Below the pieces are notes generated by a model. It searched no databases and was not told where the DNA came from. It saw only the letters and a list, made by a program, of their open reading frames with translations. The position numbers were made by a program, and so were the translations under genes. A stretch of 64,000 bases of DNA, taken from the NCBI GenBank assembly GCA_947503525.1, contig CANNEA010000010.1:124001-188000 (forward strand), written 5' to 3'. Below, in pieces: positions 9,953-26,137 of this stretch. How positions within the stretch are numbered: the first letter of the stretch is position 1; every line of letters starts with the position of its first letter. Source of the stretch: an uncultured Carboxylicivirga sp. (lineage in GTDB: Bacteria; Bacteroidota; Bacteroidia; Bacteroidales; Marinilabiliaceae).

Positions 9953-10029
9953 ACAACAAGATTGCCTTTGTAAAATTAATTTCCTGGCATAAAGACTGCT
10001 AATTTTTGGCTTTTATTATCTTTATATCA

Positions 10030-11321: not shown

Positions 11322-11400
11322 CATACTGTCCGTATATGGTGATTAATCATCAAACGTGATCAAAGCTATATAATGTTGACAAGTAATAATTAAGCCATTG

Positions 11401-11437
11401 AAAACAAAAGAGGCCGAATGCTTGTACACTCGACCTC
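11401..11437 (-). terminator. Rho-independent terminator of the C45-like gene
   Basis: Read on the minus strand: GAGGTCGAGTG, loop of 6, CATTCGGCCTC, then TTTTGTTTT. The stem has two G-U or compensated pairs. It starts 22 bases after the stop of the acyltransferase-like gene. Confidence 0.8.
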
Positions 11438-11458
11438 CCTTTTAAAAGCTATTATTAT

Positions 11459-12652: not shown

Positions 12653-12845
12653 TGTTCTTTGTTTTAATTGAATTTTCTTGTTTAAATAGAACAGGGCCAG
12701 CCGGGAATAATTCCCCTTTTGGAAATTGAAAAAATAGCTGTTAAAGGGCTCTAAAAAGAAGAAAAGTCAGAAGCAACAAAAAGGCTTACGCACTAGGAAT
12801 AAAGGCGATGAGAAATGTATTGTTATTCCAGATGTTAGGGTAATG
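12653..12845 (-). promoter_or_regulatory. Leader with shared elements upstream of the C45-like gene
   Basis: The 193 bases upstream of the gene hold two elements shared with other genes here (given as plus-strand sequence). TAGAACAGGG lies at 12687-12696, 35 bases from the start codon. A variant of the dyad, TGTTAGGGTAATG, lies at 12833-12845, 181 bases from the start; its right half-site is altered. From 12846 to 12935 nothing is seen. Confidence 0.6.
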
Positions 12846-12935
12846 TTACTTAATAACAACTGCAGGCTATTGTTTTAATATGTTTGACATTGCCTCGGAA
12901 ACGCATTTTGTTGCTCTGGTATAAAGTCGATTTAA

Positions 12936-12967
12936 TAACAAACCAGGCTACCCAAAAGGATAGCCTG
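12936..12967 (-). terminator. Rho-independent terminator of the PepSY-like lipoprotein gene
   Basis: Minus strand: CAGGCTATCC, loop TTTT, GGGTAGCCTG (one mismatch), then GGTTTGTTATT. Same core (AGGCTAcC) as the terminators of the duplicated lipopeptide genes. Confidence 0.75.
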
Positions 12968-13005
12968 ATTGTTCAATGAGAATGTAAACGTTTTGAATGA
13001 ACTTC

Positions 13006-13596
13006 TTAGTCATCTATTGTTTTTCTTAAGAAATTTCCGTTCCCATCGAAATACAATTTGTACTCGGGATTCCCATCTAATTCAACTTCATATTCGCTAA
13101 TTTCCTCGCCTCTCATGCAAACTTTTACATCATCAATTGAGTGATGCGGAAACTGAGTCCTGATATAAGTTTTAATACTTTGCGGCAAACTATAGGAGGA
13201 AATCTTAATTCCACATCTAAGTTCTTTATCTCCCCCATTTCCACCACCTCCGATAGAAATACGTCCATTATTAGCTAAATATTCTCCATCTCCACTAAAG
13301 TAAAGTTCTCCATCACCTTCCATCTCCACATCGTAACGTGTGATTGTTTGGTTCTCATCCATGCAAACATCAACTTCGTCTATTTGTTGACCAGGAAGGT
13401 TGACACTAATGAAGTTGCTTATTTTTGCAGGCAAACTTGATTTGGGAAAATCAATATCACAAGTTTCTTGCTTTACTGGCGGAACGGGATTAGGGTTTAC
13501 CGGTTTGCTAGGCATTGGATCATAGCCTGTTTCACATGATGTCAACGCTGTTAATGTCAACACTACTAATACTGTAAATTTTGCTAAAGTTTTCAT
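13006..13596 (-). CDS. Lipoprotein with two PepSY-like (BLIP-like) repeats
   Basis: 196 residues. Signal peptide with lipobox LTSC, lipidated Cys21. Two related units follow. The first (about 46-105) runs CDIDFPKSSLPAKISNFI ... GQQIDEVDVCMDENQTI ... YDVEMEGDGELYFSGDGEYL. The second (about 127-192) runs CGIKISSYSLPQSIKTYI ... HHSIDDVKVCMRGEEIS ... YEVELDGNPEYKLYFDGNGNFL. This is the repeat of Bacteroidota PepSY-like / beta-lactamase-inhibitor-like proteins, secreted or lipid-anchored small domains often found in surface stress regulons. Each unit has two cysteines that could pair. Its leader has the dyad at 13782-13794. The linker between units (GGGGNGG) is glycine-rich. Confidence 0.8.
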   Translation of the reverse strand: MKTLAKFTVLVVLTLTALTSCETGYDPMPSKPVNPNPVPPVKQETCDIDFPKSSLPAKISNFISVNLPGQQIDEVDVCMDENQTITRYDVEMEGDGELYFSGDGEYLANNGRISIGGGGNGGDKELRCGIKISSYSLPQSIKTYIRTQFPHHSIDDVKVCMRGEEISEYEVELDGNPEYKLYFDGNGNFLRKTIDD

Positions 13597-13794
13597 TTTA
13601 AATTGTTTTTAATTATTTATAATTGATTGTTTGATTAGAGCAGTGCAGTCATCCATAATTTGCCCTGATCGATTCCCTATTTTACTTCGCTAAAAGGCTT
13701 AAGGATCTACAGAAAACATGAACTAACAGCAAAGGGAAACCGCATCAATAAAGAGGTACATAAAAAACAATATCAAGTTGAGGTTAGGGTAACA
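13597..13794 (-). promoter_or_regulatory. Leader with dyad upstream of the PepSY-like lipoprotein gene
   Basis: Plus-strand sequence GGTTAGGGTAACA at 13782-13794 is the dyad with its first base changed, 186 bases from the start codon. A weak version of the proximal element, TAGAGCAGTG, is at 13636-13645. The sequence GTACCTC (minus strand) follows the dyad at a longer distance (22 bases) than in the two best other sites (14 bases). Nothing else is seen in this gap apart from the terminator at 13883-13909. Confidence 0.55.
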
Positions 13795-13882
13795 TGTGAA
13801 ATAAAAAACCTTAATAGCATGGACTCTTTGGTTTGCAAATTGCCTTAAGAAGGGATGATGATAGTTGACTATTTTTAGGCAT

Positions 13883-13909
13883 AAAAAAAGGCTACCCTTT
13901 AGGCAGCCT
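13883..13909 (-). terminator. Rho-independent terminator of lipopeptide gene copy 1
   Basis: Minus strand: AGGCTGCC, loop TAAAG, GGTAGCCT (one G-U pair), then TTTTTTT. Located 30 bases after the stop codon. Confidence 0.85.
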
Positions 13910-13938
13910 CGAAAACACACTATATGAAAACACTAAAC

Positions 13939-14130
13939 TTAATCGCAATCTAATTCCCATCTTCCGTCGTCCCATTCCCAGTGGCATCCCGGAGGTGCTG
14001 GTTGACTTGGACGTCCATTTCCGTTTCCTCCTCTTCTGTCCGGTTCATAATTATCATCATCGCATGAAGAAAAACCAAAAGCCATTACGGCTAATACTAC
14101 TGTTACTAATGCTAATCTTACTTTTTTCAT
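13939..14130 (-). CDS. Small surface lipopeptide, copy 1
   Basis: 63 residues: signal peptide of 22 residues, lipobox FSSC with lipidated Cys23, then a 41-residue mature chain. The mature part starts CDDDNYE, which resembles the acidic lipoprotein export signal used by Bacteroidota to send lipoproteins to the cell surface. It continues with two arginines, a Gly/Asn-rich linker (GGNGNGR), a Pro-rich bend and a compact Trp-rich end with Cys49 and Cys62 that may form a disulfide (GCHWEWDDGRWELDC). I do not know this family. Copy 2 at 16099 has an identical mature chain and differs at only three signal-peptide residues (8, 19, 21), so the mature peptide is under constraint. Its own promoter region and terminator make it a single-gene unit. 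Confidence 0.8.
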   Translation of the reverse strand: MKKVRLALVTVVLAVMAFGFSSCDDDNYEPDRRGGNGNGRPSQPAPPGCHWEWDDGRWELDCD

Positions 14131-14339
14131 CGTTTTATTATTTAAATTATTATTGTTTTAATTGTTCTTGCTTGTTTAATTAGAACAGGGTCGGCTTTAA
14201 TAATAAACCCTCTTGATTACCCTAAGCATTAGGTGAGATTAAGGAGGAAAACAAGAAAAAATCAAGGGTGACATTTACCCCTCTCCTTAATTTAAGCGGG
14301 GTGCGGAGGTATAAAAACGATTGTGCTGTTAGGGTAACA
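14131..14339 (-). promoter_or_regulatory. Leader with dyad upstream of lipopeptide copy 1
   Basis: Plus-strand elements: TAGAACAGGG at 14181-14190 (51 bases from the start), an inverted repeat AGGGT (14187-14191) ... ACCCT (14207-14211), and the perfect dyad TGTTAGGGTAACA at 14327-14339 (197 bases from the start). On the minus strand the dyad is followed after 14 bases by ATACCTCC. The remainder up to 14478 shows nothing. Confidence 0.7.
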
Positions 14340-14478
14340 AAAGGAAAGAATAATTGTAATTACTTAAAAAAAGGATACTCCCTGATATGGCAAATAAAGC
14401 AATTGCATAAATCAATACCGGAGTTAATAAACTATATTAATCCATGGAGACAAGGCAGTCAAAGCATCAGATAACCCG

Positions 14479-14805
14479 TTACAGAAAAACGGTAAAGTAG
14501 ACACTAAAGATATTTACCCGGCTTTCAAACTCACCCCGATAAAACACACCACATTGATACTTACTGCCCATAATATCAATAACGGGTTCTATCTCAAGTA
14601 TAAATTCATCTTCGCGAGTATCATCAATAGCCTTAACCTCATAAATTGGAGTGATCTGGATAAAAGCCTTTTCATTAATAAGAAAGGACGAAACAATTTG
14701 TGCCGTAAAACCATGGTCTTCTTCCTGTAATTCAACAGGGACCGAATTATCGCATAGACATTCGATTTCCTGAAATAAAAAATGGCCGCCAAATCTGGCG
14801 ACCAT
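14479..14805 (-). CDS. Doubtful 108-codon frame, possible gene remnant
   Basis: The frame opens with ATG at 14803-14805 and ends at 14479. Its composition from residue 15 on looks protein-like, with hydrophobic/acidic alternation (AFIQITPIYEVKAIDDTRED, EFILEIEPVIDIMG). However, the ATG and first codons lie inside the terminator hairpin of the preceding gene, so translation from that ATG would need transcription through the terminator. No signal peptide or known domain is recognised. It may be the 3' part of a gene whose 5' end has been replaced by the neighbouring lipoprotein unit, or a real gene with another start. Kept at low confidence. Confidence 0.3.
   Translation of the reverse strand: MVARFGGHFLFQEIECLCDNSVPVELQEEDHGFTAQIVSSFLINEKAFIQITPIYEVKAIDDTREDEFILEIEPVIDIMGSKYQCGVFYRGEFESRVNIFSVYFTVFL
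14772..14805 (-). terminator. Rho-independent terminator of the 305-codon lipoprotein gene
   Basis: Minus strand: GGTCGCC, loop AGATTT, GGCGGCC (one G-U pair), then ATTTTTTATTT. It begins 23 bases after the stop of the gene at 14828-15745. Confidence 0.8.
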
Positions 14806-14827
14806 TATATTTAAATGTTTTTTTATT

Positions 14828-15745
14828 CTACATTGATTTAATTTCAATTCTAATATTGTCACTCGAAGCAAAGGACGTTCCATTGATGGCTTCAACTTTT
14901 ATCAGTCCTACTTTACCTCTCTCAGTTTTAAAAACGAATGTTTCACCTACTTTACATCCTTCCACTATATCAATTCCTGAATCCAATTGTAGCTTTGATA
15001 AGTAGTCGTAATCCACATTGTCCCAATCCACATCCTTTTTAATGTTAAAGAATGTTGAGTTACGCTGTTCCCATTGTTGTGTAGCTGTTGCCGAATTCTT
15101 TGCTACGGAATGGTTTGGAGAAATTATACTCGACTTCCTATTCTTATCATAGCTGTACAAAAAGTCTGTTTTATTTTGCTCTTCAAGGCTTAAGATATCA
15201 CCTGATCCGGCCTGAGCAAATACCTCTCCGGTACTGTTTGACATAAATGTTCCTTTTGATTGACCATCGGCATAAAACTGCGAATTATATAAAGTTGCCT
15301 GCCAGATTTTCATTTCTTTGACCATATTTTTATCAATGCTAATGTCATAATTGGCATTAAAAAATCGTCCTTCAACATCTTCAGCAATAACAACCAGGCG
15401 CGTGTCAACAGTTAAATTTTTAAGAGGGATCTCAAATTTCCAGATTTTATTGTCTTCACCAAAAGCATCGAACAGCATTGACTCCACCACTTCATCGCCA
15501 ATTAATTGTTTTAGATTGATTTCTTTTAATCCAACTTCAGAGCTTACATAACCTTTAATTACATGATCAGTACCTGGAGCAATTTTAACCTTATCCTTTC
15601 CCTGATTGAAAATAACACTTGGAGGAGCATTGTCAATTGGAGGAGTAGGTAGGTTTGGTTTTACCTCGTTATTTTCGCATGCTATAAAACTAAATAGTAT
15701 TAAAGATGCCATAAATGCTTTCAGAATTAATCTTAACTTTTTCAT
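14828..15745 (-). CDS. Lipoprotein of unknown function, Ig-like/FN-like N-terminal half
   Basis: 305 residues. Signal peptide with lipobox FIAC, lipidated Cys23, then a Pro/Asn-rich spacer (NLPTPPIDNAPPSVIF). Residues about 40-140 read like a beta-sandwich of the Ig-like/cadherin type found in Bacteroidota lipoproteins (PGTDHVIKGYVSSEVGLKEI, DTRLVVIAEDVEGRF). The C-terminal half (from about 155: GTFMSNSTGEVFAQAGSG, and KVGETFVFKTERGKVGLIKVEAI) may be a second beta domain. I cannot name the family. It sits between the two copies of the lipopeptide cassette and has the same leader elements (perfect dyad at 15942-15954), so it is probably controlled with them. Confidence 0.75.
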   Translation of the reverse strand: MKKLRLILKAFMASLILFSFIACENNEVKPNLPTPPIDNAPPSVIFNQGKDKVKIAPGTDHVIKGYVSSEVGLKEINLKQLIGDEVVESMLFDAFGEDNKIWKFEIPLKNLTVDTRLVVIAEDVEGRFFNANYDISIDKNMVKEMKIWQATLYNSQFYADGQSKGTFMSNSTGEVFAQAGSGDILSLEEQNKTDFLYSYDKNRKSSIISPNHSVAKNSATATQQWEQRNSTFFNIKKDVDWDNVDYDYLSKLQLDSGIDIVEGCKVGETFVFKTERGKVGLIKVEAINGTSFASSDNIRIEIKSM

Positions 15746-15954
15746 TGTTCTATTTTTAAATTAATTATTGTTTTAATTGTATTTGCTTGTTTGATTAGAA
15801 CAGGGCTAGCTTTAATTCTAAACCCTCTAAACTTTTCAAATTATAAGGTGGGACTCAAGAATAAAAAGAGTAAAAATCGAGGCATGTATTTTCCATAGCC
15901 TTTAAATCACGTGGGATATAGAGGTATTATACTAATTGAGATGTTAGGGTAACA
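15746..15954 (-). promoter_or_regulatory. Leader with dyad upstream of the 305-codon lipoprotein gene
   Basis: Plus-strand elements: TAGAACAGGG at 15796-15805 (51 bases from the start), AGGG...ACCCT (15822-15826), and the perfect dyad TGTTAGGGTAACA at 15942-15954 (197 bases from the start). On the minus strand ATACCTCT follows the dyad after 14 bases, the same spacing as at 14327. Bases 15955-16033 show nothing. Confidence 0.7.
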
Positions 15955-16041
15955 GTTGGTTGATATTACTATTATGTCACATTACTCCATATTTGTTTTC
16001 TTCTCAAAACCTATTCGAACCGTTGACAATTTTCTTGGCAC

Positions 16042-16069
16042 AAAAAAAAGGCTACCCTTTAGGTAGCCT
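16042..16069 (-). terminator. Rho-independent terminator of lipopeptide gene copy 2
   Basis: Minus strand: AGGCTACC, loop TAAAG, GGTAGCCT, then a run of eight T. Perfect 8-bp stem; same as copy 1 with one base change that restores a Watson-Crick pair. Confidence 0.85.
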
Positions 16070-16098
16070 CGAAAACACACTATATGAAAACACTAAAC

Positions 16099-16290
16099 TT
16101 AATCGCAATCTAATTCCCATCGTCCGTCATCCCATTCCCAGTGGCATCCCGGAGGTGCTGGTTGACTTGGACGTCCATTTCCATTTCCTCCTCTTCTGTC
16201 TGGTTCATAATTATCATCGTCGCATGAGGCAAAACTAAAAGCCATTACGGCTAATACTACTGTTACTACTGCTAATCTTACTTTTTTCAT
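16099..16290 (-). CDS. Small surface lipopeptide, copy 2
   Basis: 63 residues. Same layout as copy 1 at 13939: 22-residue signal, lipobox FASC with Cys23, acidic CDDDNYE start, Gly/Asn/Pro linker, and a Trp-rich end with Cys49 and Cys62. Differences from copy 1 are Leu8 to Val, Gly19 to Ser and Ser21 to Ala, all in the removed signal peptide. Its leader carries the perfect dyad at 16487-16499, which also lies 96 bases upstream of the divergent regulator-like gene at 16595. Confidence 0.8.
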   Translation of the reverse strand: MKKVRLAVVTVVLAVMAFSFASCDDDNYEPDRRGGNGNGRPSQPAPPGCHWEWDDGRWELDCD

Positions 16291-16499
16291 CGTTTTATTT
16301 TTTAAATTATTATTGTTTTAATTGTTCTTGCTTGTTTGATTAGAACAGGGTAACCATTAATAATAAACCCTTTAAATTCCCCTAACTAGCTGGTGAAATT
16401 GAAGATGAAAACAAGTAAAAATTAAGGTTGACATTTACCCCTATTCCTAATTTAAGCGGTGTGTGGAGGCCTAAAAACGATTGTGCTGTTAGGGTAACA
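16291..16499 (-). promoter_or_regulatory. Leader with dyad, shared by divergent genes
   Basis: Plus-strand elements: TAGAACAGGG at 16341-16350 (51 bases from the lipopeptide start), AGGGT...ACCCT (16347-16351 and 16367-16371), and the perfect dyad TGTTAGGGTAACA at 16487-16499 (197 bases from the lipopeptide start). The dyad faces the regulator-like gene at 16595 on the other side, so one site could serve both. The remaining 95 bases to 16594 hold only an AT-rich promoter-like stretch. Confidence 0.65.
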
Positions 16500-16594
16500 A
16501 TTACCTATTTTCTTTTAAAACATTGCCATGTTGTTTCCTTTTGTTGGCAAATTAAATGAAAGCGGCTAAATTGAAGTCATAATTAGTTATACCT

Positions 16595-18172
16595 ATGGCC
16601 GACCGAAAGAAATACAAAATACGAGTTGAGATTATCAACAAGCAAATGGAAACTATCTTAAATAGCAGTGTTTTTAAGAAGGCTAAGAAACTGCAGGCCA
16701 TCCTCCGTTACCTTGTTGAACAAGTAAACGCCGGTAAAAGCTGGCAACTAAAAATGATATCTGTAGCTATTGATGTATTTGATTTGGATGCTGATTTGAG
16801 TCCTTCGGATGAAACAAAAGTTAGAATGCAGGTTGGCAGATTAAGACAACGCTTACATGAATATTATAACGAAGAAGGAAGTAATGATTCAGTTGTATTT
16901 CGTCTTCAAAAAGGGAGTTACGTGCCTGAGTTTATATTAAGAAAGGATTTAAACACATTTTCTGAAACAAGAGAAGTGGTCAATACCTCTATGTATTCAA
17001 TTGCTGTATACCCAATTGCAAATAATGGTGATGAGTCTCTTAAATCTATTTGTATTGGTTTATCTCAGCAACTCATTATTGATTTATCACGCTTCTCCTA
17101 TTTAAATGTACGTGGAGAAGTACAACAATCACAATATCCCGATCTTACTGATCTTAAATCAATGTCAAAAGATTTAGGCGCAAGATTCCTGTTAACTGGA
17201 AACATTACGAAGATTGGAGATGAATATACCGTAATGCTAAATTTGAACGATTTAAGCAAAACAACAGTACTATGGGGCGATTCGTATCAATTCAAATCGG
17301 GTGAATTAAATGCGCTTATATCCTCTTCTTCTCAAAAGGCAGTATCTTCAATTACCAGTAGCTATGGAGTTCTGGCAAAACATTTAATGTCCGCTTTGAA
17401 TGTTGAGCAAGTTAACATTAAAGAAAAAGTGAACTTATTGTATTCAAAGTGGGGTCGCGAGTATACTGATCATTCTGCATCCGAAGTACTACAAGCAATC
17501 CATGAAGGATTAACAACTTACCCTGACAATACAGATCTTATGGCCATTGCTGCTGAAGTCTATCTATCGCGTTATTATTTTTCTGATTTAATTGATGATA
17601 CAGATTTCGTTGTGGGAAAAGACTTTGCAATGAAGGCTATTGAACAGGATCCCTATCATACTATCGCATGTTGGTCTGCTGGCTTATATTACTATCTAAA
17701 CAAAGAGAAAGAATTAAGTCTTGAGTACTTTAATCGCTGTGCTGAGAGTAATCCTAACGATGCTATTTTTATTAATGGTGTTGGTGTTATGGCTTATTTT
17801 CTCGACGAAGAAGATTTATCAATGCAATTGATGAAAGAGGCTAATCAATCTACTCAATTATTACAACCATTTGATGAGGCTGTATATTGTTTGATTTTCT
17901 TAAAAAAAGGCGAATTTCAAGATGCTTTTAAAGTAGCCATGAAAATTAATCTTAAGGACAATTATCTGGATCCACTGTTAAAAATGGTATGCTATAATAG
18001 CCTGGGACGCATGGAAGAATCTAAATTGGAGTTATCCCGATTACTAAAGATAAGACCCGAATTTCTATCACAAGGCACTCAAATGCTCAATACAATATTT
18101 TATAGCAATGATGTGGTCAAGCTGCTTACATCGAGCTTTAATTCAGTTTCTGAAACTCCTTTAAACTTATAA
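16595..18172 (+). CDS. TolB/TPR-type regulator-like protein
   Basis: 525 residues, no membrane helix. Residues 28-113 match the N-terminal domain of a family of bacterial proteins that pair a putative DNA-binding or signalling module with a TolB/FlgO-like domain. Its motifs are LQAILRYLVEQVNAGKSWQLK, ETKVRMQVGRLRQRLHEYY and RLQKGSYVPEF. Residues about 134-235 are the TolB-like domain (SIAVYPIANNGDE, GARFLLTGNITKIGDEYTV), and 270-520 are tetratricopeptide-like helices. Relatives in Proteobacteria and Acidobacteria are often called CadC-like or adenylate-cyclase-like regulators. Its divergent placement from the lipopeptide gene, sharing the dyad at 16487-16499, suggests it controls the set and itself. 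DNA binding is inferred, not shown. Confidence 0.65.
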   Translation: MADRKKYKIRVEIINKQMETILNSSVFKKAKKLQAILRYLVEQVNAGKSWQLKMISVAIDVFDLDADLSPSDETKVRMQVGRLRQRLHEYYNEEGSNDSVVFRLQKGSYVPEFILRKDLNTFSETREVVNTSMYSIAVYPIANNGDESLKSICIGLSQQLIIDLSRFSYLNVRGEVQQSQYPDLTDLKSMSKDLGARFLLTGNITKIGDEYTVMLNLNDLSKTTVLWGDSYQFKSGELNALISSSSQKAVSSITSSYGVLAKHLMSALNVEQVNIKEKVNLLYSKWGREYTDHSASEVLQAIHEGLTTYPDNTDLMAIAAEVYLSRYYFSDLIDDTDFVVGKDFAMKAIEQDPYHTIACWSAGLYYYLNKEKELSLEYFNRCAESNPNDAIFINGVGVMAYFLDEEDLSMQLMKEANQSTQLLQPFDEAVYCLIFLKKGEFQDAFKVAMKINLKDNYLDPLLKMVCYNSLGRMEESKLELSRLLKIRPEFLSQGTQMLNTIFYSNDVVKLLTSSFNSVSETPLNL

Positions 18173-18173
18173 A

Positions 18174-18197
18174 GGCTGCCATAGAAAGCAGCCCCTT
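18174..18197 (+). terminator. Hairpin terminator between convergent genes
   Basis: GGCTGC (18174-18179), loop of 8, GCAGCC (18188-18193), then CCTTTAT. It follows the stop of the TolB/TPR gene by one base and precedes the convergent gene at 18225. Confidence 0.6.
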
Positions 18198-18224
18198 TAT
18201 CATATCACAAATGGATTTTTAGTT

Positions 18225-19061
18225 TTACGCTTTTCGCAATTGCTTTATTTCGTCCATAATAATGGTCACTTCCTTTTTAGCATCTTCTTGATTGTTAACT
18301 TCCGGATCAAAAGTCACTAATCTTTCGTATTCTTTTTCAATCGCTTTTGCATCACTGCCTTCTGAAGCAATAATAGCCTTAAGCCATATGGCGGTTAATC
18401 TATGATTGGCATCCTTTGATGTTTCACCAATATTGGCAAAAGCCAAAGCCCGTTCCATATTATTGTCCAATAAAGCCAGGAAAGCATCAACATTCTCACT
18501 TCCATATTCCTTACGATATTGTTCTTCCTCCGATGGTTTTGCAACTTGTTTGTCTTGCATATCAGCCAGCATTTGATTTTGTGCCATCATCATGCGCTCA
18601 TCATTAATGTCTTTCGAAATGGTACCAACTCCATGTGTGGCAATACCAGCTGCAGCCAATTGTCGGTCATCAGCTAAAACCCCAATTAAATACATCACTC
18701 CACCTGCAGCCCGCGCAACATGTGCAGCGGTTCGGCGAGATTGTAAATCTTCAATTTGCATGCGATAAATGTTTCCGTCGCCTGTGAAATCAAGTTTAAT
18801 ATGTTTTGAGAATGGTCTATTTGTTTTTAGTGATAAGCGTTTATATAAATCAAAATCATCAGTCTTTAAACTTTTAATTTGTTCATATTTGATAATTTGA
18901 TTTTCATCATCAACAATCCCTCCGCTTCGAATATTATTTAAAGCAACATCCATTTCCTGTTGGCTCCCATCCTTAAGTATGATTTGAATTGGCTTAGCCA
19001 TACACAATACATTGCTAATAGTTATTAAAATAATAAGTGTTGTTACCTTTAAAATTTTCAT
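18225..19061 (-). CDS. Exported protein of unknown function with glycine-zipper-like segment
   Basis: 278 residues with a signal peptide (about 1-21). The N-terminal third is beta-rich (IQIILKDGSQQEMDVALNNI, DDFDLYKRLSLKTNRPF). Residues about 110-155 form an Ala/Gly-rich hydrophobic stretch (HVARAAGGVMYLIGVLADDRQ, AAAGIATHGVGTISKD) that could insert in a membrane. The rest is helical and charged, with a TPR-like end (AFLALLDNNMERALAFANIG). Not recognised as a named family. Its leader has the AGGGT-N15-ACCCT inverted repeat and ACAGGG, but I do not see the dyad, so membership of the regulon is partial. Confidence 0.65.
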   Translation of the reverse strand: MKILKVTTLIILITISNVLCMAKPIQIILKDGSQQEMDVALNNIRSGGIVDDENQIIKYEQIKSLKTDDFDLYKRLSLKTNRPFSKHIKLDFTGDGNIYRMQIEDLQSRRTAAHVARAAGGVMYLIGVLADDRQLAAAGIATHGVGTISKDINDERMMMAQNQMLADMQDKQVAKPSEEEQYRKEYGSENVDAFLALLDNNMERALAFANIGETSKDANHRLTAIWLKAIIASEGSDAKAIEKEYERLVTFDPEVNNQEDAKKEVTIIMDEIKQLRKA

Positions 19062-19147
19062 AGTTCTATTATTTACATTTTACTTACAACAGGGTAGAAT
19101 CAGAATGAAAACCCTAAACAATAATACGCTTGTCATGCTTTAAATGA
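19062..19147 (-). promoter_or_regulatory. Leader of the 278-codon exported protein
   Basis: Plus-strand AGGGT (19091-19095) and ACCCT (19111-19115) form the same inverted repeat as in the lipopeptide leaders, and ACAGGG lies at 19089-19094. No TGTTAGGGTAACA-like site was found in the 440 bases upstream. Confidence 0.45.
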
Positions 19148-19267
19148 AGAATAAGAAAAGACATACTTTTAAACTTCAATGAAGCAAATAAACCTGATAT
19201 ATATGATCGTTTAGAAGAGACATTACATTTTGATCTTATTCCTAAATCAAATGTGTCAGAAAACTAA
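19148..19267 (+). pseudogene. Open frame without start, likely gene fragment
   Basis: After the stop at 19145-19147 the frame codes for 39 residues (KDILLNFNEANKPDIYDRLE, then ETLHFDLIPKSNVSEN) and stops at 19265-19267. There is no ATG, GTG or TTG at its head, but the composition is typical of coding sequence: charged, helical, low in rare residues. Probably the 3' end of a gene lost at the edge of the immune-like locus. Family not recognised. Confidence 0.35.
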
Positions 19268-19375
19268 GAACATGAAAAAATAATAGATTTAGGTTATGGT
19301 ATTAATGGGTAAGGCTACAAGACTTTTTGTGGTTAATGGCATAATCATCTTCCTTTATAATATCTATGATTTTAG

Positions 19376-19513
19376 GTACCTGGTTCCAAGTATTTGCAGA
19401 TATATCCGTACATTTATGAGAGTGATTATTCAAAAGGGACTTATTTTGTCCAGAACACCTGTGGAGATTTGAAGGATCTAGTTACTTGGTTAAAATCATT
19501 ACATTATGGATAA
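19376..19513 (+). pseudogene. Open frame overlapping the next start, likely gene fragment
   Basis: From a TAG at 19373-19375 the frame codes for 45 residues (start VPGSKYLQIYPYIYESDYSK, end GDLKDLVTWLKSLHYG) and stops at 19511-19513, overlapping the ATG of the membrane protein at 19506 by four codon positions. No start codon is present at its head. Overlapping stop/start of this kind is usual between translationally coupled genes, so the lost gene may once have been the operon partner of the membrane protein. The fragment begins exactly at GTACCTGGTT, a 10-mer also found in the tRNA-Cys gene. Confidence 0.4.
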
Positions 19514-19934
19514 GCAAGAAATACTTCATAAAGAAATTGATTTAATACAGAGTTGTATTAAACGAATGGCTAGTAATTCTTTTTTAATAAAAGGTTGGAC
19601 TGTTTCATTGATTGCTGTTGTACTTGCCTTGACTAAAGATAAAGTTGATTTTTTATTCATCAGTATTGTGTTATTAATACCCGTTCTTGGCTTCTGGTAT
19701 TTAGACACATTCTTTTTGCGAACAGAAAAGATGTATAGGATGATGTATAAATGGGTTATTGAAAATAGGCTTTCAAGTGAAGAGCGGATGTACGAACTCA
19801 ATCCTCAAAGATATAAGGCTGAAGTAAATTCTTCTATAAAAATTATGTTCTCAGTAACGCTGAGGATTTTTTATGGAATACCATCTCTTGTCTTAATTAC
19901 AATTATCATCTTTAAACTCATTTTACCATGCTAA
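19506..19934 (+). CDS. Small membrane protein, SLATT-like
   Basis: 142 residues. An N-terminal amphipathic helix (KQEILHKEIDLIQSCIKRMA) leads to FLIKGWTVS and two hydrophobic helices (about 32-44 and 47-66). A charged cytoplasmic helix follows (TEKMYRMMYKWVIENRLSSEERMYE), then a last hydrophobic region (about 109-140). The IQxxIxRMAxNSFxIKGW pattern is common in small membrane proteins carried on mobile elements and defence islands; the shape recalls SLATT effectors, which are thought to act as pore-forming suicide proteins. The family assignment is inference. It faces the nSTAND gene convergently (60 bases apart), so it is not in the same operon. Confidence 0.6.
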   Translation: MDKQEILHKEIDLIQSCIKRMASNSFLIKGWTVSLIAVVLALTKDKVDFLFISIVLLIPVLGFWYLDTFFLRTEKMYRMMYKWVIENRLSSEERMYELNPQRYKAEVNSSIKIMFSVTLRIFYGIPSLVLITIIIFKLILPC

Positions 19935-19993
19935 TTAAGTTGCCGTTAAAAGAGAAAAGTATTTTTTAGTTTTCATTTCAAATATTTACTCTA

Positions 19994-22708
19994 TCAAGGT
20001 GATTCACGCTTACTAAAATTAATTTCTTCAACCTTATTTTCAGGATCAACTTTGTTAGTTTTCTTAGTCTTAGTTTCGTCAATATATGGCCCTTTCAATT
20101 TTTTCAGTTTCTTTTGAATTTCTGAAGCAACTTTAGGATCGAGTAATGTAACTTTATTATATGTAAGATTCAACGATTTCAATTGAGTCAGATTGCTTAT
20201 TTCAATTGGAATATCTAGTGAGTCCAACATATTATTGCTAAGGTCTAAAAACTTAAGGTTTTTTAGATTCCAAAGACTGAGAGGAAGCTCTGTAAGTTCA
20301 TTGTTCGAAAGATTTAAAGATTCCAATTGAGTCAGTTTACCTATATCAATAGGTATTGACTCCAGCTTATTATTGCTCAGATCTAAAGCTTTTAGTTCTT
20401 TTAGATCCCAAATATTGGGAAGCTGTCCATCAAATTTACTGTGTGAAAGATTCAGGTATTTTAATTTCGAGAGACCATTTAATTCATTTGTTACGTATTT
20501 TATTCTGTTATTCGAAAAATCAAGTGCATAGATTGATATGAGTTTGCCAATAACTTTTGAAATAGAATCAATCTGTGTATCGCTAATCTTTAAATACCTC
20601 AAATTTGTAAGATCACCTATTTGTGCTGGTACAGCATTCAAATTATTATCTTTTATGGTAAGATGTTTTAGATGATCAAGAGCCAGATATTTGGCGTAGG
20701 ACTGTTTATCTTTTATATTTTTTTTTAAAAATAATTCTTCCAATCGATGACTTTTTCTTTGACCAGGTGAAACATTAGATGCTTCTGTTCTCGATTTCCA
20801 TTCAATCTCAATAGCTTCTATTTCTTGCAAAGTGGTATCAGAAGCTTGGATGATTGAATTTGTAATGTTTAACGTTAGAAATTCCTTGAAGTTTCCATCA
20901 AAATAATCCAAAGTATAGACCTTATTTGCTCTTAATGCTTTGGTTGAGATTTCAATAAAGTCATTAAAATTTTCAGCTTCATCATATCTATATGAGCAGA
21001 TAGTGTCTCCATCCTCATTAATAAATCCGAATTTATTTCCATCGGAGACTTTTGCTATACCATTGTGGAAATGATAGTTCAATCCAGAAAGAATAGTCCT
21101 TCTTTCATTTGATAATTTCTGAGACCAAATGAATAATGCTATGGCAACCACAAAAAATATAACAAACGTCACAATTACCAAATTTTTATTCCTTTGAATT
21201 AACTTCTTTTTATACTTGAACTGCCTAACTTTCTCTTCATCAGCGAGTCTTTGTTTTTGCTTTTCCTCACTCGCCTCCAGAAACTTCATGGCGAGCTCAA
21301 ATTCCCCACCATATCGTTTTGCCCAATCTTTTGTCGGCTGTTCCCTTTTCTTCCATTCCCGGGCATATTCCAGGTTAGGAGTGTCCCAAAGTGAAGCTTT
21401 CCTCTCCTTCCATCGCTTTGCCGTTTTTTCCAGAAACAGGTATTGATCTGCGGATTTGGACTCCTTGTCCACCCAATCATCCATCCGGTCCCATTGCCTG
21501 ATCAGGCTTTCATGGCCTATATCGATCATGGTTTCCGGGAAGAGGTTTTCTGTATATACAGGGGTAAGGAAACTGCATTCCGGCTGGCGGAAAATGTCGA
21601 TCACCTGCTTTACGCTTTCCTGATACTTTTCTTTTTCTTCTGATGAAACATTTTCCTCAAAATGACCGGCAACCGACGATATCACTTCTAAGAGGGTTGG
21701 CCGACGTGTATCTCTTTTACCAATACTGCGTTCGCTCAGGCACCGGAAAATGGTTTCCGCAGTCTTTTTCTGTTCGTGTATTAGCTGGTTAAAAGTTTCA
21801 TTTGCATGATTAGATAAGGCATCCTTAAAACCACCTGCTTTTTTGTAATCCTCAAGTGTGAGGACCATATCTTCGAGAGCTGATCCCCTTGACTCTGCCT
21901 GTTTTTTGGTCCACATTCGCATCAGCAGGTGCTGCAACAAGGGAAGCTGGTCAGGATCGTTTCCCATGTCATTTAACAGGTTATTGACAAGGCGGGCATC
22001 AACATGCCCGCCGAACACCCGGGCCGGACCTTCTATGGCTGCACGGGACTGTTCCCGGGTTAACCGGGGAGTTAAAAACTGACTCTCGTTAATGACTTGC
22101 GGTAATTCCTCGAATATGGCACAATCGCCCAGGAAATCGGAGCGCATGGTGATCACCACGTAGATAGGGAATTCGCCTTTCCGGGCACTTTCGATAAGTA
22201 AAGACACAAAAGCATCGGCCTCGTCAAAATTTCCCTCTTTCCTGAACCGGAAAATTTCTTCGAATTGATCAACGAGAACGAGCAAATTGGTTTTCTCCGG
22301 AAGAGGCTTTTCCTGGAGCACTTCAACCAATCCCAAGGGGCCCCGTCGCAATGTAGCATAAACATAGGCCAGTACTTCTTCCTCAGGTTCTTTTGAATCC
22401 ATTGCAGTCAATACCGCGTTTGCCAAACGTTTCAAGGGATGGCTTCCTGGGCGTAGAACAGCAAAATTCCACCTGGCACCGGCTTCAGCCATGAAACCGG
22501 CTTCAAGAGATCCGATCAAACCAGCCCTAACTAGGGAAGATTTTCCACACCCAGATGCGCCCATTACAGAGAGAAAATGCGATTCTGATAGTTTTTCTAA
22601 TAGTTGGTCGGTTTGTTCTTCTCGTCCAAAAAAAATGTCGGTTTCATATCGATGATAGGGTCGCAAACCGGGATAAGGCCATTTAGTTTCCATGGTTTCG
22701 GTTTTCAT
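19994..22708 (-). CDS. nSTAND NTPase with membrane helix, WG-like and leucine-rich repeats
   Basis: 904 residues. Residues 11-27 and on form an nSTAND1-type NTPase: GLRPYHRYETDIFFGRE opening, Walker A GASGCGKSS at 50-58, Walker B LLVLVDQFEE at 142-151, and a sensor/arginine region MRSDFLGDC near 188. A helical arm follows (300-480), then a Lys-rich stretch (KYKKKLIQRNK, 498-508) and one hydrophobic helix (509-528). After it come WG-like repeats (551-580, KFGFINEDGDTICSYRYDEAENF shortened) and about eight leucine-rich repeats (676-855, LxxLxLSNNxLxxLP). With the basic flank inside, the LRR part would face the periplasm. The start overlaps the TIR gene's end by 26 bases, so the two are co-translated. 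Base composition breaks near 21240, just before the membrane helix. Likely role: ligand sensing that triggers NTPase oligomerisation and TIR activation. Confidence 0.85.
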   Translation of the reverse strand: MKTETMETKWPYPGLRPYHRYETDIFFGREEQTDQLLEKLSESHFLSVMGASGCGKSSLVRAGLIGSLEAGFMAEAGARWNFAVLRPGSHPLKRLANAVLTAMDSKEPEEEVLAYVYATLRRGPLGLVEVLQEKPLPEKTNLLVLVDQFEEIFRFRKEGNFDEADAFVSLLIESARKGEFPIYVVITMRSDFLGDCAIFEELPQVINESQFLTPRLTREQSRAAIEGPARVFGGHVDARLVNNLLNDMGNDPDQLPLLQHLLMRMWTKKQAESRGSALEDMVLTLEDYKKAGGFKDALSNHANETFNQLIHEQKKTAETIFRCLSERSIGKRDTRRPTLLEVISSVAGHFEENVSSEEKEKYQESVKQVIDIFRQPECSFLTPVYTENLFPETMIDIGHESLIRQWDRMDDWVDKESKSADQYLFLEKTAKRWKERKASLWDTPNLEYAREWKKREQPTKDWAKRYGGEFELAMKFLEASEEKQKQRLADEEKVRQFKYKKKLIQRNKNLVIVTFVIFFVVAIALFIWSQKLSNERRTILSGLNYHFHNGIAKVSDGNKFGFINEDGDTICSYRYDEAENFNDFIEISTKALRANKVYTLDYFDGNFKEFLTLNITNSIIQASDTTLQEIEAIEIEWKSRTEASNVSPGQRKSHRLEELFLKKNIKDKQSYAKYLALDHLKHLTIKDNNLNAVPAQIGDLTNLRYLKISDTQIDSISKVIGKLISIYALDFSNNRIKYVTNELNGLSKLKYLNLSHSKFDGQLPNIWDLKELKALDLSNNKLESIPIDIGKLTQLESLNLSNNELTELPLSLWNLKNLKFLDLSNNMLDSLDIPIEISNLTQLKSLNLTYNKVTLLDPKVASEIQKKLKKLKGPYIDETKTKKTNKVDPENKVEEINFSKRESP

Positions 22709-24152
22709 TTAAATACTCGACAAATGATTTTAATTCATCTACCTGTAAATCTTTAATTGAATGAATGATGCGCATCCCTTGAAGTTTTATAGGTAATTCT
22801 TCCTTAGGTTCCGGTGGCCCAACATAAACAGCCAGTGCCTTAAGGGGCTCTTCTCGTAATGCCGATAATTTTCTAACCCTTCTTAATTGTTCTGAAACCC
22901 AAGCGGAAGTTATGTTCCCGTAAACGATAATAACACCATCACAAATCCTTAGATTCTCTTCGAGATCCTGTCGGATTTCCGCTTGATTACTTTTTCTACT
23001 TATCACTTCCTCAGGAAATATCGGTAGGCCATAGTCTACACCTAACTCATCTAACTTAGATTTAATTTCTTCTGCCACTTTCTTGTCTTCGGAATTCATG
23101 TTCACAAAGACAAAAACATTCAGTGGCTTTTTGTCTGGTTCCGGTTCTTTTTCCTTTACCTTTTTCAACACTGCTTTCTTGAACTCTCCTAGATCAACCG
23201 CCATAACGGTTTCCTTGTCTAGTAGTTCTTTATAAGCTGAATCCGGCAATTGTTCAATGTCTACCGCTTTGCTACGCCACTGTAAAATGGGTAATTGTTG
23301 CTCTAATGCCCCTTGGTATTGTAGGCAGGGATAAGTCAAGTCGGAACCAGGTGCTTTTTTCCCATGCAATTGACTTAATAGTTGAACGAAGATCTTACTT
23401 CTCTTGATATCCTTTACTAGTGCTTCCTGAAAAAGCCTCTCCTTCCGAGGATACCAGCTATCCGGTAAAACATGTATTTTTTGCTGATCCAGGTATCTTT
23501 TAACTTCGTCACGAAAAGAATCGAGGTCGTCAGTGACTTCAGCAAGGTAAACTGTAGCCTGATCAATCTGATCTATATCTTTACAATGCCGTTCAATCTC
23601 TTTATTTTTCAGCTTCTTCAATACATTTTCCAGATCAAACACCAGGTCATTGTATAAATTTACGTATTCTTCTTCTTCTGGCTTTGGCACACCGTAAATT
23701 TTCGTAGTTCCATGTCTTCCTTGTAATGTCCAGAATTTACTCTTTTTGTATTCTTTAAGTTCAAGAGGCATATCATCTTCGTCCACACGGTCACGATATA
23801 CGACAAAGATCCTGGAACCGGAATAAGTTCGCTTTTTAATCAACTCAAAAAATTTATTCTTTTCCTGCTGACACCAAGGAGAAGCAACATAACTTGGGGA
23901 GAGAATAATGATGATTACTGCAGATTCCTCAAGCGCTTTAACAATTGTGGGTGTGACTTCTGAACTAGGGGATAGTTCATCATCTATCCATAGTTTGTAA
24001 AATTCACTCCGTCCGAGACGCTGACTCAATCGAATCTCAACAGCTTCAATCAATGCACTAACCCAGCCGTCTTTCATTCCGGGCAAAAGCCGGTTATCCT
24101 CGTGTGCGTAACTGACAAAAATGTCATTTTTGTACTTGCTTATGTAAGCCAT
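22683..24152 (-). CDS. Protein with TIR domain and two further TIR-like segments
   Basis: 489 residues. TIR-1 at about 8-175: DIFVSYAHEDN, LWIDDELSPSSEV, IIILSPSYVASPWCQQE with Glu97 in the place of the NADase catalytic glutamate. A middle segment (199-262) has strand-helix alternation of the same kind (ATVYLAEVTDDLDSFRDEV, SKIFVQLLSQLHG). A third unit (343-480) reads LNVFVFVNMNSEDKKVAEEI, GVIIVYGNITSAWVSEQ (Glu421 after Trp418), YVGPPEPKEELPIK, again TIR-like. Bacterial TIR domains cleave NAD or make cyclic ADP-ribose-type signals; at least TIR-1 keeps the needed residues. It is the first gene of a two-gene unit with the nSTAND-LRR protein, overlapping it by 26 bases. No signal peptide, so it is cytoplasmic. 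Confidence 0.85.
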   Translation of the reverse strand: MAYISKYKNDIFVSYAHEDNRLLPGMKDGWVSALIEAVEIRLSQRLGRSEFYKLWIDDELSPSSEVTPTIVKALEESAVIIIILSPSYVASPWCQQEKNKFFELIKKRTYSGSRIFVVYRDRVDEDDMPLELKEYKKSKFWTLQGRHGTTKIYGVPKPEEEEYVNLYNDLVFDLENVLKKLKNKEIERHCKDIDQIDQATVYLAEVTDDLDSFRDEVKRYLDQQKIHVLPDSWYPRKERLFQEALVKDIKRSKIFVQLLSQLHGKKAPGSDLTYPCLQYQGALEQQLPILQWRSKAVDIEQLPDSAYKELLDKETVMAVDLGEFKKAVLKKVKEKEPEPDKKPLNVFVFVNMNSEDKKVAEEIKSKLDELGVDYGLPIFPEEVISRKSNQAEIRQDLEENLRICDGVIIVYGNITSAWVSEQLRRVRKLSALREEPLKALAVYVGPPEPKEELPIKLQGMRIIHSIKDLQVDELKSFVEYLNENRNHGN

Positions 24153-24252
24153 TGTGTTGTTTACTATATTGGTTCCAAAACAATTGTCAGTATTTAGATC
24201 ATATTAAAGCACTATTTTTCAATTGTTAAAATATGCTTAAGTACCCTGAGAT

Positions 24253-25023
24253 TTATTCTCGATTCGAACAGTTTAAACAAATATAGTAGTCCCCATCCGA
24301 ATCAATTGTCATTTTGTATTCTATCATATTATAGTACTGACCATCAAAATATTTAGATTTATCTCCAGACCATGTGTAATTTCCTCCAGGTATTTCAGCA
24401 TAAATGTAGACAATACTATTATTGGTTTTTAGCCTTAAACCATCTGAAAGTAAGTATGTACCAGTAAAAGCATCAATTGAATACCAATATTCTGTAATCC
24501 AAACCTCATCGTTATTAAGATATCTGACTGCCAATTGTAGTTTATCATTACATTTATTTTCGAAATATATTTGACTTTGATTTGAAGAGGCTCTTAGTTT
24601 CCAATTGAATTCGTCAAGGAATATTTTTATTGCATAGCTTCCTTCTATTTGTCTTATATAGGCATTGGCCTCAATACCTTGGGCATCTCTATTTATCAAA
24701 CTGGAGTTGCCATATTCATCGACCGACAAATAAAAAATATCTGGACTGTAATCATATGGAGTTGATGTCCCTGGGTAAACTGGATCACTTCCTCTGAACC
24801 TCATGCCATCCAGAGTATTTTCGATTTCTATCTTCTGTTCAACCATCCTAGTTGCACCTTCAGTGAAATAACGACATCGCATCTTTCCTGTGCCATCCTC
24901 ATATAGTACAAGTGCACATCTGTACTGAGTTATACCAGCAGTGAACTTCACTTCATAAATATCTTGTGCCTGAATTGCATAACCAAATGTAATTGTCAAG
25001 AAAAATATTGTAATAAATTTCAT
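24253..25023 (-). CDS. Exported protein of unknown function
   Basis: 256 residues with a signal peptide (about 1-19, cut before QDIYEV). The mature protein is beta-rich with many Tyr, Asn and Asp (QYRCALVLYEDGTGKMRCRYF, DSDGDYYICLNCSNRE at the end) and five or more cysteines. The repeated D-G-x-Y/F turns recall beta-propeller or jelly-roll proteins, but I do not recognise the family. It lies 100 bases upstream of the TIR gene on the same strand, so it could be the first gene of that unit; the gap has no clear terminator. Confidence 0.6.
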   Translation of the reverse strand: MKFITIFFLTITFGYAIQAQDIYEVKFTAGITQYRCALVLYEDGTGKMRCRYFTEGATRMVEQKIEIENTLDGMRFRGSDPVYPGTSTPYDYSPDIFYLSVDEYGNSSLINRDAQGIEANAYIRQIEGSYAIKIFLDEFNWKLRASSNQSQIYFENKCNDKLQLAVRYLNNDEVWITEYWYSIDAFTGTYLLSDGLRLKTNNSIVYIYAEIPGGNYTWSGDKSKYFDGQYYNMIEYKMTIDSDGDYYICLNCSNRE

Positions 25024-25768
25024 GAGCTGATTTATTTGATTGTTTATTTACTGATAAAACAAGTATATCTTCTATATACAAAATTCTAATTTATTAAGGT
25101 AAATGTCAATAGCCTCAACTTCAAAAAACTATCCCTTTGAACAATACATAATACTGAGGAATCAGTTATTTGTTTACAACAAAGAATATAATTTAAGAGA
25201 AATTGAAGACTTACCCTTTCGAACTCTGCAAGGCTTACAAAAATATTGAAGGTCAAACGACCTTTGACGTTAGTGGTATCAAACTATCATTCAAACTAGT
25301 AAGTTCAAAATACTTGTCATGAAAACCAGATAGCATATCAATAGGATATCTAAAAGACCTCCCTGATCTATCTAGTTTCAACTTAAAAACGACATCATCT
25401 TCTCAAGTTTTGAACGTTTCTTTACATCACTTTTGGTCTACTGAAAGAGCTTTGTTCTGCCATTTTTTCTAGCGCTTCTATTTGCATCCCCAAATTCTAA
25501 TCTTTTTAGATATCCTGGCATAATCGATTTTCATTACTGTAAAAGCCAAGTTAGGATTTAGAAGGAGAAGTTGTCTCAACAAACGGTAGTATGATGATTC
25601 ATCCAGTAAAGATTGTAAAAACTATAGCGGTTTATCTTTCTCTTATGCCTAGCCCGTATTTAAATCCAATATTTCATTTACACCATCAAAAGGGCATAAG
25701 GGAAGAAATAGTTTGCTGAAAAAAATAATTTAAAAACTTATCATTGTTTCCAAAATATTTCCAATACT
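25024..25768. other. Gap with decayed sequence and one short frame
   Basis: About 745 bases without an intact long gene. One 48-codon frame at 25103-25249 is listed separately. An inverted repeat GTCAAA-CGACC-TTTGAC lies at 25252-25268. Minus-strand stretches near 25530-25640 translate to short protein-like runs (LLDESSYYRLLRQLLL, NPNLAFTVMKIDYARI) broken by stops and frame changes. This is what a decayed mobile or accessory gene looks like, though I cannot name it. Confidence 0.45.
25103..25249 (+). CDS. Short frame of unknown status
   Basis: ATG at 25103, stop at 25247-25249, 48 residues beginning MSIASTSKNYPFEQYIIL and containing KEYNLREIEDLPFRTLQGLQ. It reads like the N-terminus of a cytoplasmic protein and could be a small gene or the surviving start of a broken one. 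It is divergent from the exported protein at 24253. Confidence 0.3.
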   Translation: MSIASTSKNYPFEQYIILRNQLFVYNKEYNLREIEDLPFRTLQGLQKY

Positions 25769-25807: not shown

Positions 25808-25821
25808 ATCATTCTTAGTAG

Positions 25822-26136: not shown

Positions 26137-26137
26137 A

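Follow-up and report, generated by a model that had tools for sequence, protein, structure and literature searches.

Introduction

Animal Toll-like receptors combine an extracytoplasmic leucine-rich repeat (LRR) region, one membrane helix and a TIR output; Thoeris consists of the TIR protein ThsB and of ThsA (SIR2-SLOG or macro). Outer-membrane receptors are common phage entry points, and the STAND-type phage sensors described to date act, to our knowledge, inside the cell. In the available text of the sources, TIR is named among the effector and adaptor domains to which nSTAND1 NTPases of counter-invader systems are linked (PMC8195603), and EACC1 and EACC2 are membrane-associated two-gene systems built of caspase and EACC domains (PMC7159879, PMC8195603). 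STAND NTPases diversified by DGRs carry variable C-terminal sensors of the C-type lectin type, which are diversified by the retroelement, and one target was predicted to be periplasmic (PMC10907252, available text).

The window, i.e., the whole stretch of 64,000 nucleotides analysed here (uncultured Carboxylicivirga sp., contig CANNEA010000010.1, positions 124,001 to 188,000), contains two overlapping genes, for a triple-module TIR protein and for an nSTAND1 NTPase with a membrane helix and LRRs (Table 1). The pair is read here, with a probability of about 60%, as a split STAND receptor that crosses the membrane, its TIR effector acting in trans. It shares with the animal Toll-like receptors a predicted extracytoplasmic LRR region, one helix and a TIR output, and the name of a split Toll-like receptor, proposed in the earlier note, stands as a fair functional analogy; it does not hold as membership, as the TIR is a separate protein, an NTPase precedes the helix, the order of the parts is reversed and, among the TIR-linked nSTAND1 proteins scanned with Pfam, LRRs occur in the window copy only. 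The analogy makes no claim of common ancestry of the whole.

By Pfam name the NTPase family is that of the counter-invader systems; a helix between NTPase and repeat sensor together with a separate triple-module TIR gene is not described in the available text of PMC8195603. EACC1/EACC2 are alike in having two genes, a membrane helix and variable C-terminal domains, some of them extracellular, and differ, as far as the available text of PMC7159879 and PMC8195603 goes, in their caspase and EACC domains where the window pair has NTPase and TIR; no caspase-family peptidase match was found in the pair or the scanned neighbours. A STAND NTPase with a variable C-terminal sensor is common to the pair and to the DGR-diversified proteins as given in the available text of PMC10907252, but no C-type lectin domain was found by Pfam in the window pair.

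Table 1. Positions (window numbering) of the gene pair, its domains and its surroundings.
Feature	Position	Strand	Basis
TIR protein of 489 aa with three modules, candidate effector or enzyme	22683..24152	-	frame, Pfam, AlphaFold2 model
Module 1, true TIR domain, ca. residues 8-152	23697..24131	-	TIR_2, 83.4 bits (Pfam cut-off 28)
Codon of catalytic Glu97, module 1	23862-23864	-	motif WCQQE
Module 2, DUF4062-like alpha/beta module, ca. residues 199-333	23154..23558	-	Pfam, model, alignment
Module 3, TIR-like alpha/beta module, ca. residues 345-487	22692..23120	-	sub-threshold Pfam, model, alignment
nSTAND1 NTPase-membrane helix-LRR protein, 904 aa	19994..22708	-	frame, Pfam
nSTAND1 NTPase region, residues 11-437	21398..22678	-	Pfam, alignment
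Membrane helix, residues 510-528, basic run just before	21125..21181	-	hydropathy
Linker past helix, residues 529-679, no confirmed domain	20672..21124	-	Pfam, hydropathy
Eight LRRs, ca. residues 680-866, predicted extracytoplasmic sensor	20111..20671	-	Pfam, pattern, eye
Three-helix membrane protein, 142 aa, PADLOC PDC-M50A, likely TIR partner	19506..19934	+	131.7 bits, 4.9e-39
Protein of 256 aa, N-terminus resembling a signal peptide (by eye), gene 100 bp 5' of TIR gene	24253..25023	-	
Accessory block, ca. 16 kb, between tRNA-Cys and gene 8336-9952	9953..25767	.	sister-genome comparison
tRNA-Cys, edge of accessory block	25821-25892		

Results and Discussion

The two proteins

The two frames, which the earlier note had given as overlapping by 26 bp, agreed with that description in overlap, lengths, strand and coordinates. 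In 21 tabulated pairs, the TIR and nSTAND1 frames overlapped by 1–37 bp (13 pairs) or were separated by 2–21 bp (6 pairs) or by 89 and 225 bp (2 pairs). Counts of promoter-like sites (33; shuffles 29.5, sd 5.9) and of terminator-like ones (8; shuffles 5.9, sd 2.6) were of no use.

The clear TIR domain with Glu97 noted before was borne out (Pfam), and this Glu is retained in 13 of 15 aligned TIR sequences, the window copy counted. Two further TIR-like segments had also been proposed: the second matched DUF4062, just above the cut-off (residues 201–272; 25.2 vs 24.7 bits), the third gave a sub-threshold match only, to Nuc_deoxyrib_tr (19.4 bits, cut-off 28.8). The AlphaFold2 model gave three alpha/beta modules (mean pLDDT 81.9); their mutual arrangement is unsure because of a pTM of 0.44. 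In the alignment, the column taken for the catalytic one holds Gln in module 2 and no Glu in module 3. A fold search with the model gave 14 matches at E ≤ 0.001, listed without the module matched, mostly TIR-domain structures (RUN1, RPP1, RPV1, TLR1, TIR-1); MilB and a nucleoside deoxyribosyltransferase ranked lower. With its TIR domain and catalytic Glu, the protein is a candidate TIR NADase which may cleave NAD.

The nSTAND1 NTPase of the 904-aa protein (PF20703) was found with 320.3 bits against a curated cut-off of 27.1 (Pfam); Walker A (G50, S52, G53, G55, K56, S57, S58) and Walker B (D147-Q148-F149-E150-E151) are invariant in 21 aligned nSTAND1 sequences. Fold matches of the NTPase model were ORC/Cdc6, CED-4, Dark, Apaf-1 and plant NLRs, with low TM-scores, and are, as judged from this model, of the STAND/AAA class. 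The "about eight" LRRs expected earlier were counted as eight, starting at residues 680, 749, 772, 795, 818 and 843 (search pattern) and at 703 and 726 (by eye); several LRR families exceeded the Pfam cut-off, and the region has pLDDT <50 in the structure model. Of the WG-like repeats suggested besides, a single partial copy was found, in the linker past the helix and below the cut-off (18.8 vs 25.6 bits, Pfam), and this claim was dropped.

The TIR protein matched ThsB_TIR (Pfam, 23.0 bits, cut-off 21.2), and the PADLOC ThsB models only at E ≈ 5e-4. Like the Thoeris TIR, it is predicted to make a nucleotide signal, and SLATT/SLOG genes lie near some relatives of the pair; it differs in being coupled to an NTPase receptor, and no SIR2, SLOG or macro match (Pfam) was obtained in ten scanned neighbours, a set that excludes ORF 14479-14895. 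PADLOC gave for the pair weak TIR and P-loop matches only and no STAND defence family; an assignment to Avs-type STAND defence is not supported, no PADLOC STAND model being matched and the weak mad8 and mad3 matches lying in the P-loop region only. A triple-module TIR gene paired with an nSTAND1-helix-sensor gene was not recognised in the literature covered by full-text search, outside which most subscription papers lie.

Membrane topology

The single helix named in the earlier note has a Kyte-Doolittle mean of 3.15 and is the sole place in the 904-aa protein above 1.6. Hydropathy scans of proteins found with a local nSTAND1 model gave the helix in 31 of 32 TIR-linked proteins (the exception, L030, stops at 487 aa, short of it) and in 9 of 9 others with >300 bits. 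K+R residues were more numerous in the 15 residues before the helix than in the 15 after it in 37 of 40 proteins, equal in 1 and fewer in 2 (window protein, 7 vs 3); many of these proteins are closely related, and six loci, each holding two genes in tandem, account for 12 of the 32. As ATP binding wants the NTPase inside, the helix, if inserted, would put the LRRs outside. This predicted topology, already favoured in the note, is well supported, being strengthened by the conserved helix position, the positive-inside bias and the barrel genes adjoining relatives.

All 13 matches of a barrel model among 678 ORFs (6 of them its own seeds) lay directly downstream of nSTAND1 genes in Bacteroidota relatives, as did 8 of 9 matches in new loci; a TonB-dependent receptor lies beside relatives in L082 (Pfam) and in Runella (annotation). 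A periplasmic sensor is supported by the outer-membrane barrel genes adjoining many Bacteroidota relatives. The window locus gave no match to our barrel or lipoprotein models, nor did the barrel model match in the fetched stretches of the pair's own clade, so that this argument applies to the window pair by kinship only.

Relatives and the 142-aa protein

TIR and nSTAND1 genes adjoin each other in distant genomes too, though not in every case. A related TIR gene lies 5' of an nSTAND1 gene in Chlorobiaceae, other Bacteroidota, Desulfatitalea, Thiothrix, Paraburkholderia, Caballeronia, Bauldia and Planctomycetota, and one clade takes in four phyla. By these sequences the split pair is a family across several phyla, a point absent from the earlier note. 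The region past the helix varies (WD40, TPR, RHS-type, LRR); among TIR-linked nSTAND1 proteins scanned with Pfam, LRRs occur only in the window copy and WD40 is commonest. The TIR proteins of WD40-type Bacteroidota loci share only 19–23% identity with the window TIR protein, and one Bacteroidota family (L032-L034) has lost the catalytic Glu, so that some members may signal without acting as NADases.

SLATT adjoins the pair in Caballeronia (45.3 bits, cut-off 41) and was matched below the cut-off in Chlorobiaceae (L026, L028); TPR-S lies 3' of the pair in L040 (67.0 and 93.5 bits, cut-off 27.6), and SLOG cluster 2 with TIR in L050 (184.8 and 31.7 bits). As classed by sequence, these are conflict-type neighbours. 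With PADLOC, nine neighbours or relatives from other loci yielded nothing beyond weak TIR-type matches, and no relative of the TIR protein was found in phage records and viral contigs.

The M50A gene and the pair face each other tail-to-tail across 59 bp; being on the opposite strand, the M50A gene is outside the operon. A TIR-annotated gene was present at most 2 genes from the M50A relative in 11 of 11 plasmid loci examined, and judging from these neighbourhoods the 142-aa protein is likely a third part of the system, which the earlier note had passed over. It matches the M50A models of PDC-M50, a PADLOC candidate, no other M50 name being among the PADLOC matches of that search; the plasmid relatives have annotated TIR proteins of ca. 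160–410 aa as neighbours, and the neighbours of the window protein are a triple-module TIR protein and an nSTAND1 receptor.

Proposed mechanism and alternatives

The 904-aa protein would reside in the inner membrane, with cytoplasmic NTPase, one helix and periplasmic LRRs. A ligand bound on the envelope side (a phage particle, a phage protein or a product of the damaged envelope) would release the NTPase, which may oligomerise in the usual STAND manner and thereby gather and switch on the TIR protein of the overlapping gene. Module 1 would then cleave NAD or make a nucleotide messenger, as Glu97 and the habits of TIR families suggest; modules 2 and 3, devoid of that Glu, probably serve for docking or ligand binding. 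The 142-aa protein, which likely serves the TIR as membrane partner or as effector, may fill the SLATT-type place of Caballeronia and, by weaker matches, of Chlorobiaceae. An infected or attacked cell would stop growing or die, and we infer a phage defence role of the pair.

The pair could instead serve the physiology of the cell itself (uptake of nutrients or state of the envelope) by signalling across the envelope, nSTAND1 sensing an outer-membrane partner and the TIR modules being a scaffold or the maker of a regulatory nucleotide. Barrels or TonB-dependent receptors adjoining Bacteroidota relatives, together with STAS proteins, a SpoIIE-type phosphatase, a TLC-HEAT transporter and, in Runella, an annotated ATP-binding signal protein, speak for it, as do the missing Glu of L032-L034 and the outer-membrane-type partners that nSTAND1-helix proteins without a TIR gene also have. 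These features were, however, seen in Bacteroidota outside the window's clade, and the window copy sits in a variable block with a gene of a TIR-partner family adjoining; this explanation is rated unlikely. More improbable still is a cytoplasmic, membrane-anchored TIR-STAND defence, in which the helix merely tethers the protein to the membrane or lies along it and the LRRs sense a phage protein inside. Sensing inside the cell by known STAND defence proteins, the often cytoplasmic location of WD40, TPR and LRR domains and the short L030 protein agree with it; one inserted 19-residue helix of the hydropathy given above, with the NTPase inside, would bar a cytoplasmic far side, and the conservation of that helix with its charge bias and the barrel genes beside relatives' nSTAND1 genes also count against it. 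Chance adjacency of two ordinary accessory genes, the LRR gene being decayed or neutral, would suit a pair unmatched in 13 same-genus genomes, but is very unlikely because the pairing is conserved: order and adjacency are kept across phyla, mostly with overlapping frames, and both genes are open with invariant motifs.

For the split receptor as a family, a wider proposal is put forward tentatively, as possible rather than probable: inner-membrane STAND receptors with swappable periplasmic ectodomains (LRR, WD40, TPR, RHS-type), a TIR enzyme in trans and a small membrane partner (M50A/SLATT) may be the true bacterial counterpart of Toll-like receptors, recognising phage not within the cell but at its envelope, while DNA enters or earlier, moving horizontally and being widespread. 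If true, such a conserved family, crossing the membrane and exchanging its outer sensors, would form a bacterial branch of surface immunity, would tie nSTAND1 signalling to outer-membrane receptors and would offer an example, open to test, of TIR signalling that is driven from beyond the inner membrane.

Genomic setting

The locus of a sister genome (L132) has ca. 100 bp where the window has the 16-kb block, and neither the TIR protein nor the NTPase half of the 904-aa protein was matched in 13 same-genus genomes. Rfam gave tRNA only in 9000-27000. Integration at tRNA-Cys is not claimed, since no repeat of its region of at least 14 bp was found in 5001-25780. The genes of two flanking exported proteins are not firmly placed in the system, as such proteins hardly recur: that of 256 aa gave one weak match in 99 other genomes; that of 278 aa was unmatched in 12 other same-genus genomes but matched twice, with internal stops, elsewhere in its own genome.

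Gene pair and domain composition

Both genes of the pair (coordinates in the table) were found where the earlier note had placed them, with the 26-bp overlap. Domains, motifs, hydrophobic helix, pairing, sensor exchange and neighbours were established at the level of sequence. Pfam scores: TIR_2 in the 489-codon protein, 83.4 bits (cut-off 28), Glu97 being present as had been claimed; nSTAND1 in the 904-codon protein, 320.3 bits (cut-off 27.1), with LRR matches, likewise in agreement; the WG-like repeats proposed for the same protein reached 18.8 bits, under the threshold of 25.6, and were dropped. The two extra TIR-like modules both appear in the predicted model; a DUF4062 match, just significant, covers the second module only.

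Features of the window treated in this section
Feature	Position	Strand	Length	Remarks
TIR gene	24152..22683	minus	489 codons	
nSTAND1-LRR gene	22708..19994	minus	904 codons	
142-aa protein (M50A family)	19506..19934	plus	142 aa	59 bp past the pair, opposite strand; three predicted helices; PADLOC PDC-M50A 131.7 bits
Exported protein	18225..19061		278 aa	

Membrane helix and topology

The one membrane helix claimed at residues 509–528 was recovered as the sole hydrophobic peak of the 904-codon protein (510–528, mean 3.15); in the AlphaFold2 model residues 470–532 form one helix. Proteins scoring >300 bits with a local nSTAND1 model were collected and five duplicate loci were dropped, giving 41 proteins, 32 with a TIR gene among the three upstream genes and 9 without. 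The helix started at residues 400–650 in 31 of the 32 and was present in 9/9 of the others. Lys and Arg in the 15 residues flanking the helix were more numerous before than after it in 37 of 40 proteins (equal in 1, fewer in 2), the rows not being independent (many close kin; 12 of the 32 belong to six loci that each carry a tandem pair of nSTAND1 genes); the window protein has 7 before and 3 after. As the NTPase depends on ATP of the cytoplasm, a helix that is inserted would put the LRR outside, and the predicted insertion, with the NTPase in and the LRR out, is strongly indicated. The exceptional TIR-linked protein (locus L030; L numbers denote loci in other genomes) ends at 487 aa, before the helix, having either been truncated naturally or represent a form that lacks it by design.

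Distribution of the pair

The TIR/nSTAND1 pair is a family. Matches to the TIR protein (own genome included): 5 of 198 relatives' genomes, with none in the 13 others of the same genus, first-look candidates being scored only in part for some; 15 of a 395-genome phylum sample. A one-genome-per-species scan gave 13 loci (Desulfatitalea, Chlorobiaceae, Pirellulaceae, Schlesneria, Paraburkholderia, Hyphomicrobiales, Bauldia, Thiothrix), the five from Chlorobiaceae lying on the same contigs as five found earlier. Identity of the window TIR protein was 29–40% to Chlorobiaceae and only 19–23% to the Bacteroidota WD40-type loci. In the loci inspected, five weak matches of the 395-genome sample left aside (L017, L019, L020, L021, L023), an nSTAND1 gene comes next after each full-length TIR relative, except in L031 (TIR inside a 1062-aa protein) and L038 (TIR relative of 855 aa), with no nSTAND1 in the stretches read, and L028/L047, where the locus is in pieces. 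Spacing in 21 pairs (L050, L092-type loci and Caballeronia apart): overlap of 1–37 bp, 13; gap of 2–21 bp, 6; gaps of 89 and 225 bp, one each.

The same idea recurs in another arrangement (L092, L093, L110–L113), in which a related TIR gene is followed by two tandem nSTAND1-helix genes of ~1350 aa and a 267–278-aa protein predicted to have six or seven helices; its TIR relative has 532–535 aa (347 aa in L113, the frame reaching the contig end), and TIR and DUF4062 matches in L092 fall slightly under cut-off.

Exchangeable sensors and NTPase tree

Repeats past the helix (Pfam): LRR, window protein; WD40, L032, L035, L036, L037, L041, L048, L049 and L050; TPR, L029; RHS or MORN type, L039 and L042; RHS under cut-off, L025; no domain at E 1e-5, L044 and L051; no repeat family, L026 and the L092 pair. 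In a tree of 53 NTPase regions, which has several long branches and for which the program warns of false joins, the window clusters with Desulfatitalea and three Chlorobiaceae rows (support 99/91), nested in a 14-row set spanning four phyla (93/99, the first value under the program's mark of 95) with a TIR gene adjoining in every row. Thirteen Bacteroidota rows form a separate set (100/99), with WD40 wherever scanned (L032, L035, L036, L037, L084).

Genomic setting

Beside GlnRS, tRNA-Cys and FolB keep constant places in seven longer sister stretches. In the window nearly 16 kb separate gene 8336–9952 from tRNA-Cys, whereas its relative in L132 lies ~100 bp from the tRNA; L133 has a gap of ~2 kb and L136 one of 0.7 kb, and no relative of this gene showed up in the four remaining stretches. 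The pair is thus inside a variable block, at which a search for a flanking repeat found none. The 278-aa exported protein has two stop-interrupted matches elsewhere in the same genome (contig C2, 537306–537928).

The 142-aa gene and conflict-type neighbours

Relatives of the 142-aa protein were found in only two other genomes among 149 relatives searched (207 and 209 aa, partial match); the gene that follows begins with what we take to be a likeness to ThsB-type TIR proteins. Plasmid records with a relative number 122. In 11 plasmid loci, chosen by eye for diversity from 20 listed, a TIR-annotated gene stood within two genes in 11/11 (a raw count, two Campylobacter and two Priestia records included) and directly adjacent in 10; in the Rhodococcus plasmid an opposite-strand HIT gene intervenes. 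With these TIR neighbours, the 142-aa gene was added as a candidate third component, on sequence grounds a likely one; that M50A acts as partner is held with moderate confidence. A relative is also present, each time at the same position, in three records of ~14.35 kb deposited as Vibrio phages.

On a Caballeronia plasmid a SLATT gene (45.3 bits, cut-off 41) precedes TIR and nSTAND1-helix genes, the latter with annotated WD40; the gene before TIR in Chlorobiaceae L026 stays under both SLATT cut-offs (Pfam 25.6 vs 26.3; NCBIfam 34.0 vs 41), and L028 matches more weakly. L040 carries two TPR-S genes downstream, and L050 a downstream gene that matches both SLOG cluster 2 and TIR.

Proposed function and outer-membrane neighbours

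STAND-type activation of the TIR protein is a moderately well-founded proposal, as is its NAD chemistry (Glu retained in 13 of 15 aligned TIR sequences); anti-phage defence by the pair is advanced with similar reserve. Among what is already known are nSTAND1, TIR effectors and two-gene conflict systems associated with the membrane (PMC8195603, PMC10907252, PMC7159879); a full-text search, with most subscription papers outside its reach, gave no description of a split TIR/nSTAND1-helix-sensor pair.

The main rival to defence is a trans-envelope signalling system serving physiology, a description that may well fit the Bacteroidota WD40 clade. An outer-membrane barrel gene is often next downstream of nSTAND1 in Bacteroidota: among 678 ORFs, 13/13 barrel-model matches directly followed nSTAND1 (six being seeds of the model), and at new loci the match was the next gene in 8 of 9 (fourth downstream in L179). 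A larger barrel, in L082, is a TonB-dependent receptor (Pfam), and another, in Runella, is so annotated; STAS, SpoIIE or TLC-HEAT genes can stand upstream. No barrel-model match came from the window or from the stretches fetched for its own clade, so barrels bear on the window topology by kinship only.

A TIR-less layout in L193 (Runella rosea plasmid), L082 and L083 has STAS genes upstream of nSTAND1-helix and a TonB-dependent receptor downstream (L083: STAS by likeness only, receptor by barrel model only; L193: ATP-binding protein also annotated); it looks like a route by which an outer-membrane receptor signals to a partner switch through a STAND NTPase. A many-helix protein of ~1030–1130 aa lies upstream of nSTAND1-helix genes in L032–L036, L084, L085, L087 and L175; Pfam labels that of L032 TLC (ATP/ADP transporter)-HEAT and adds a cNMP domain below threshold, the others being grouped with it by length and helix count. 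In L194 (Persicobacter psychrovividus plasmid) the nSTAND1-helix gene adjoins annotated phage-tail and contractile-injection genes.
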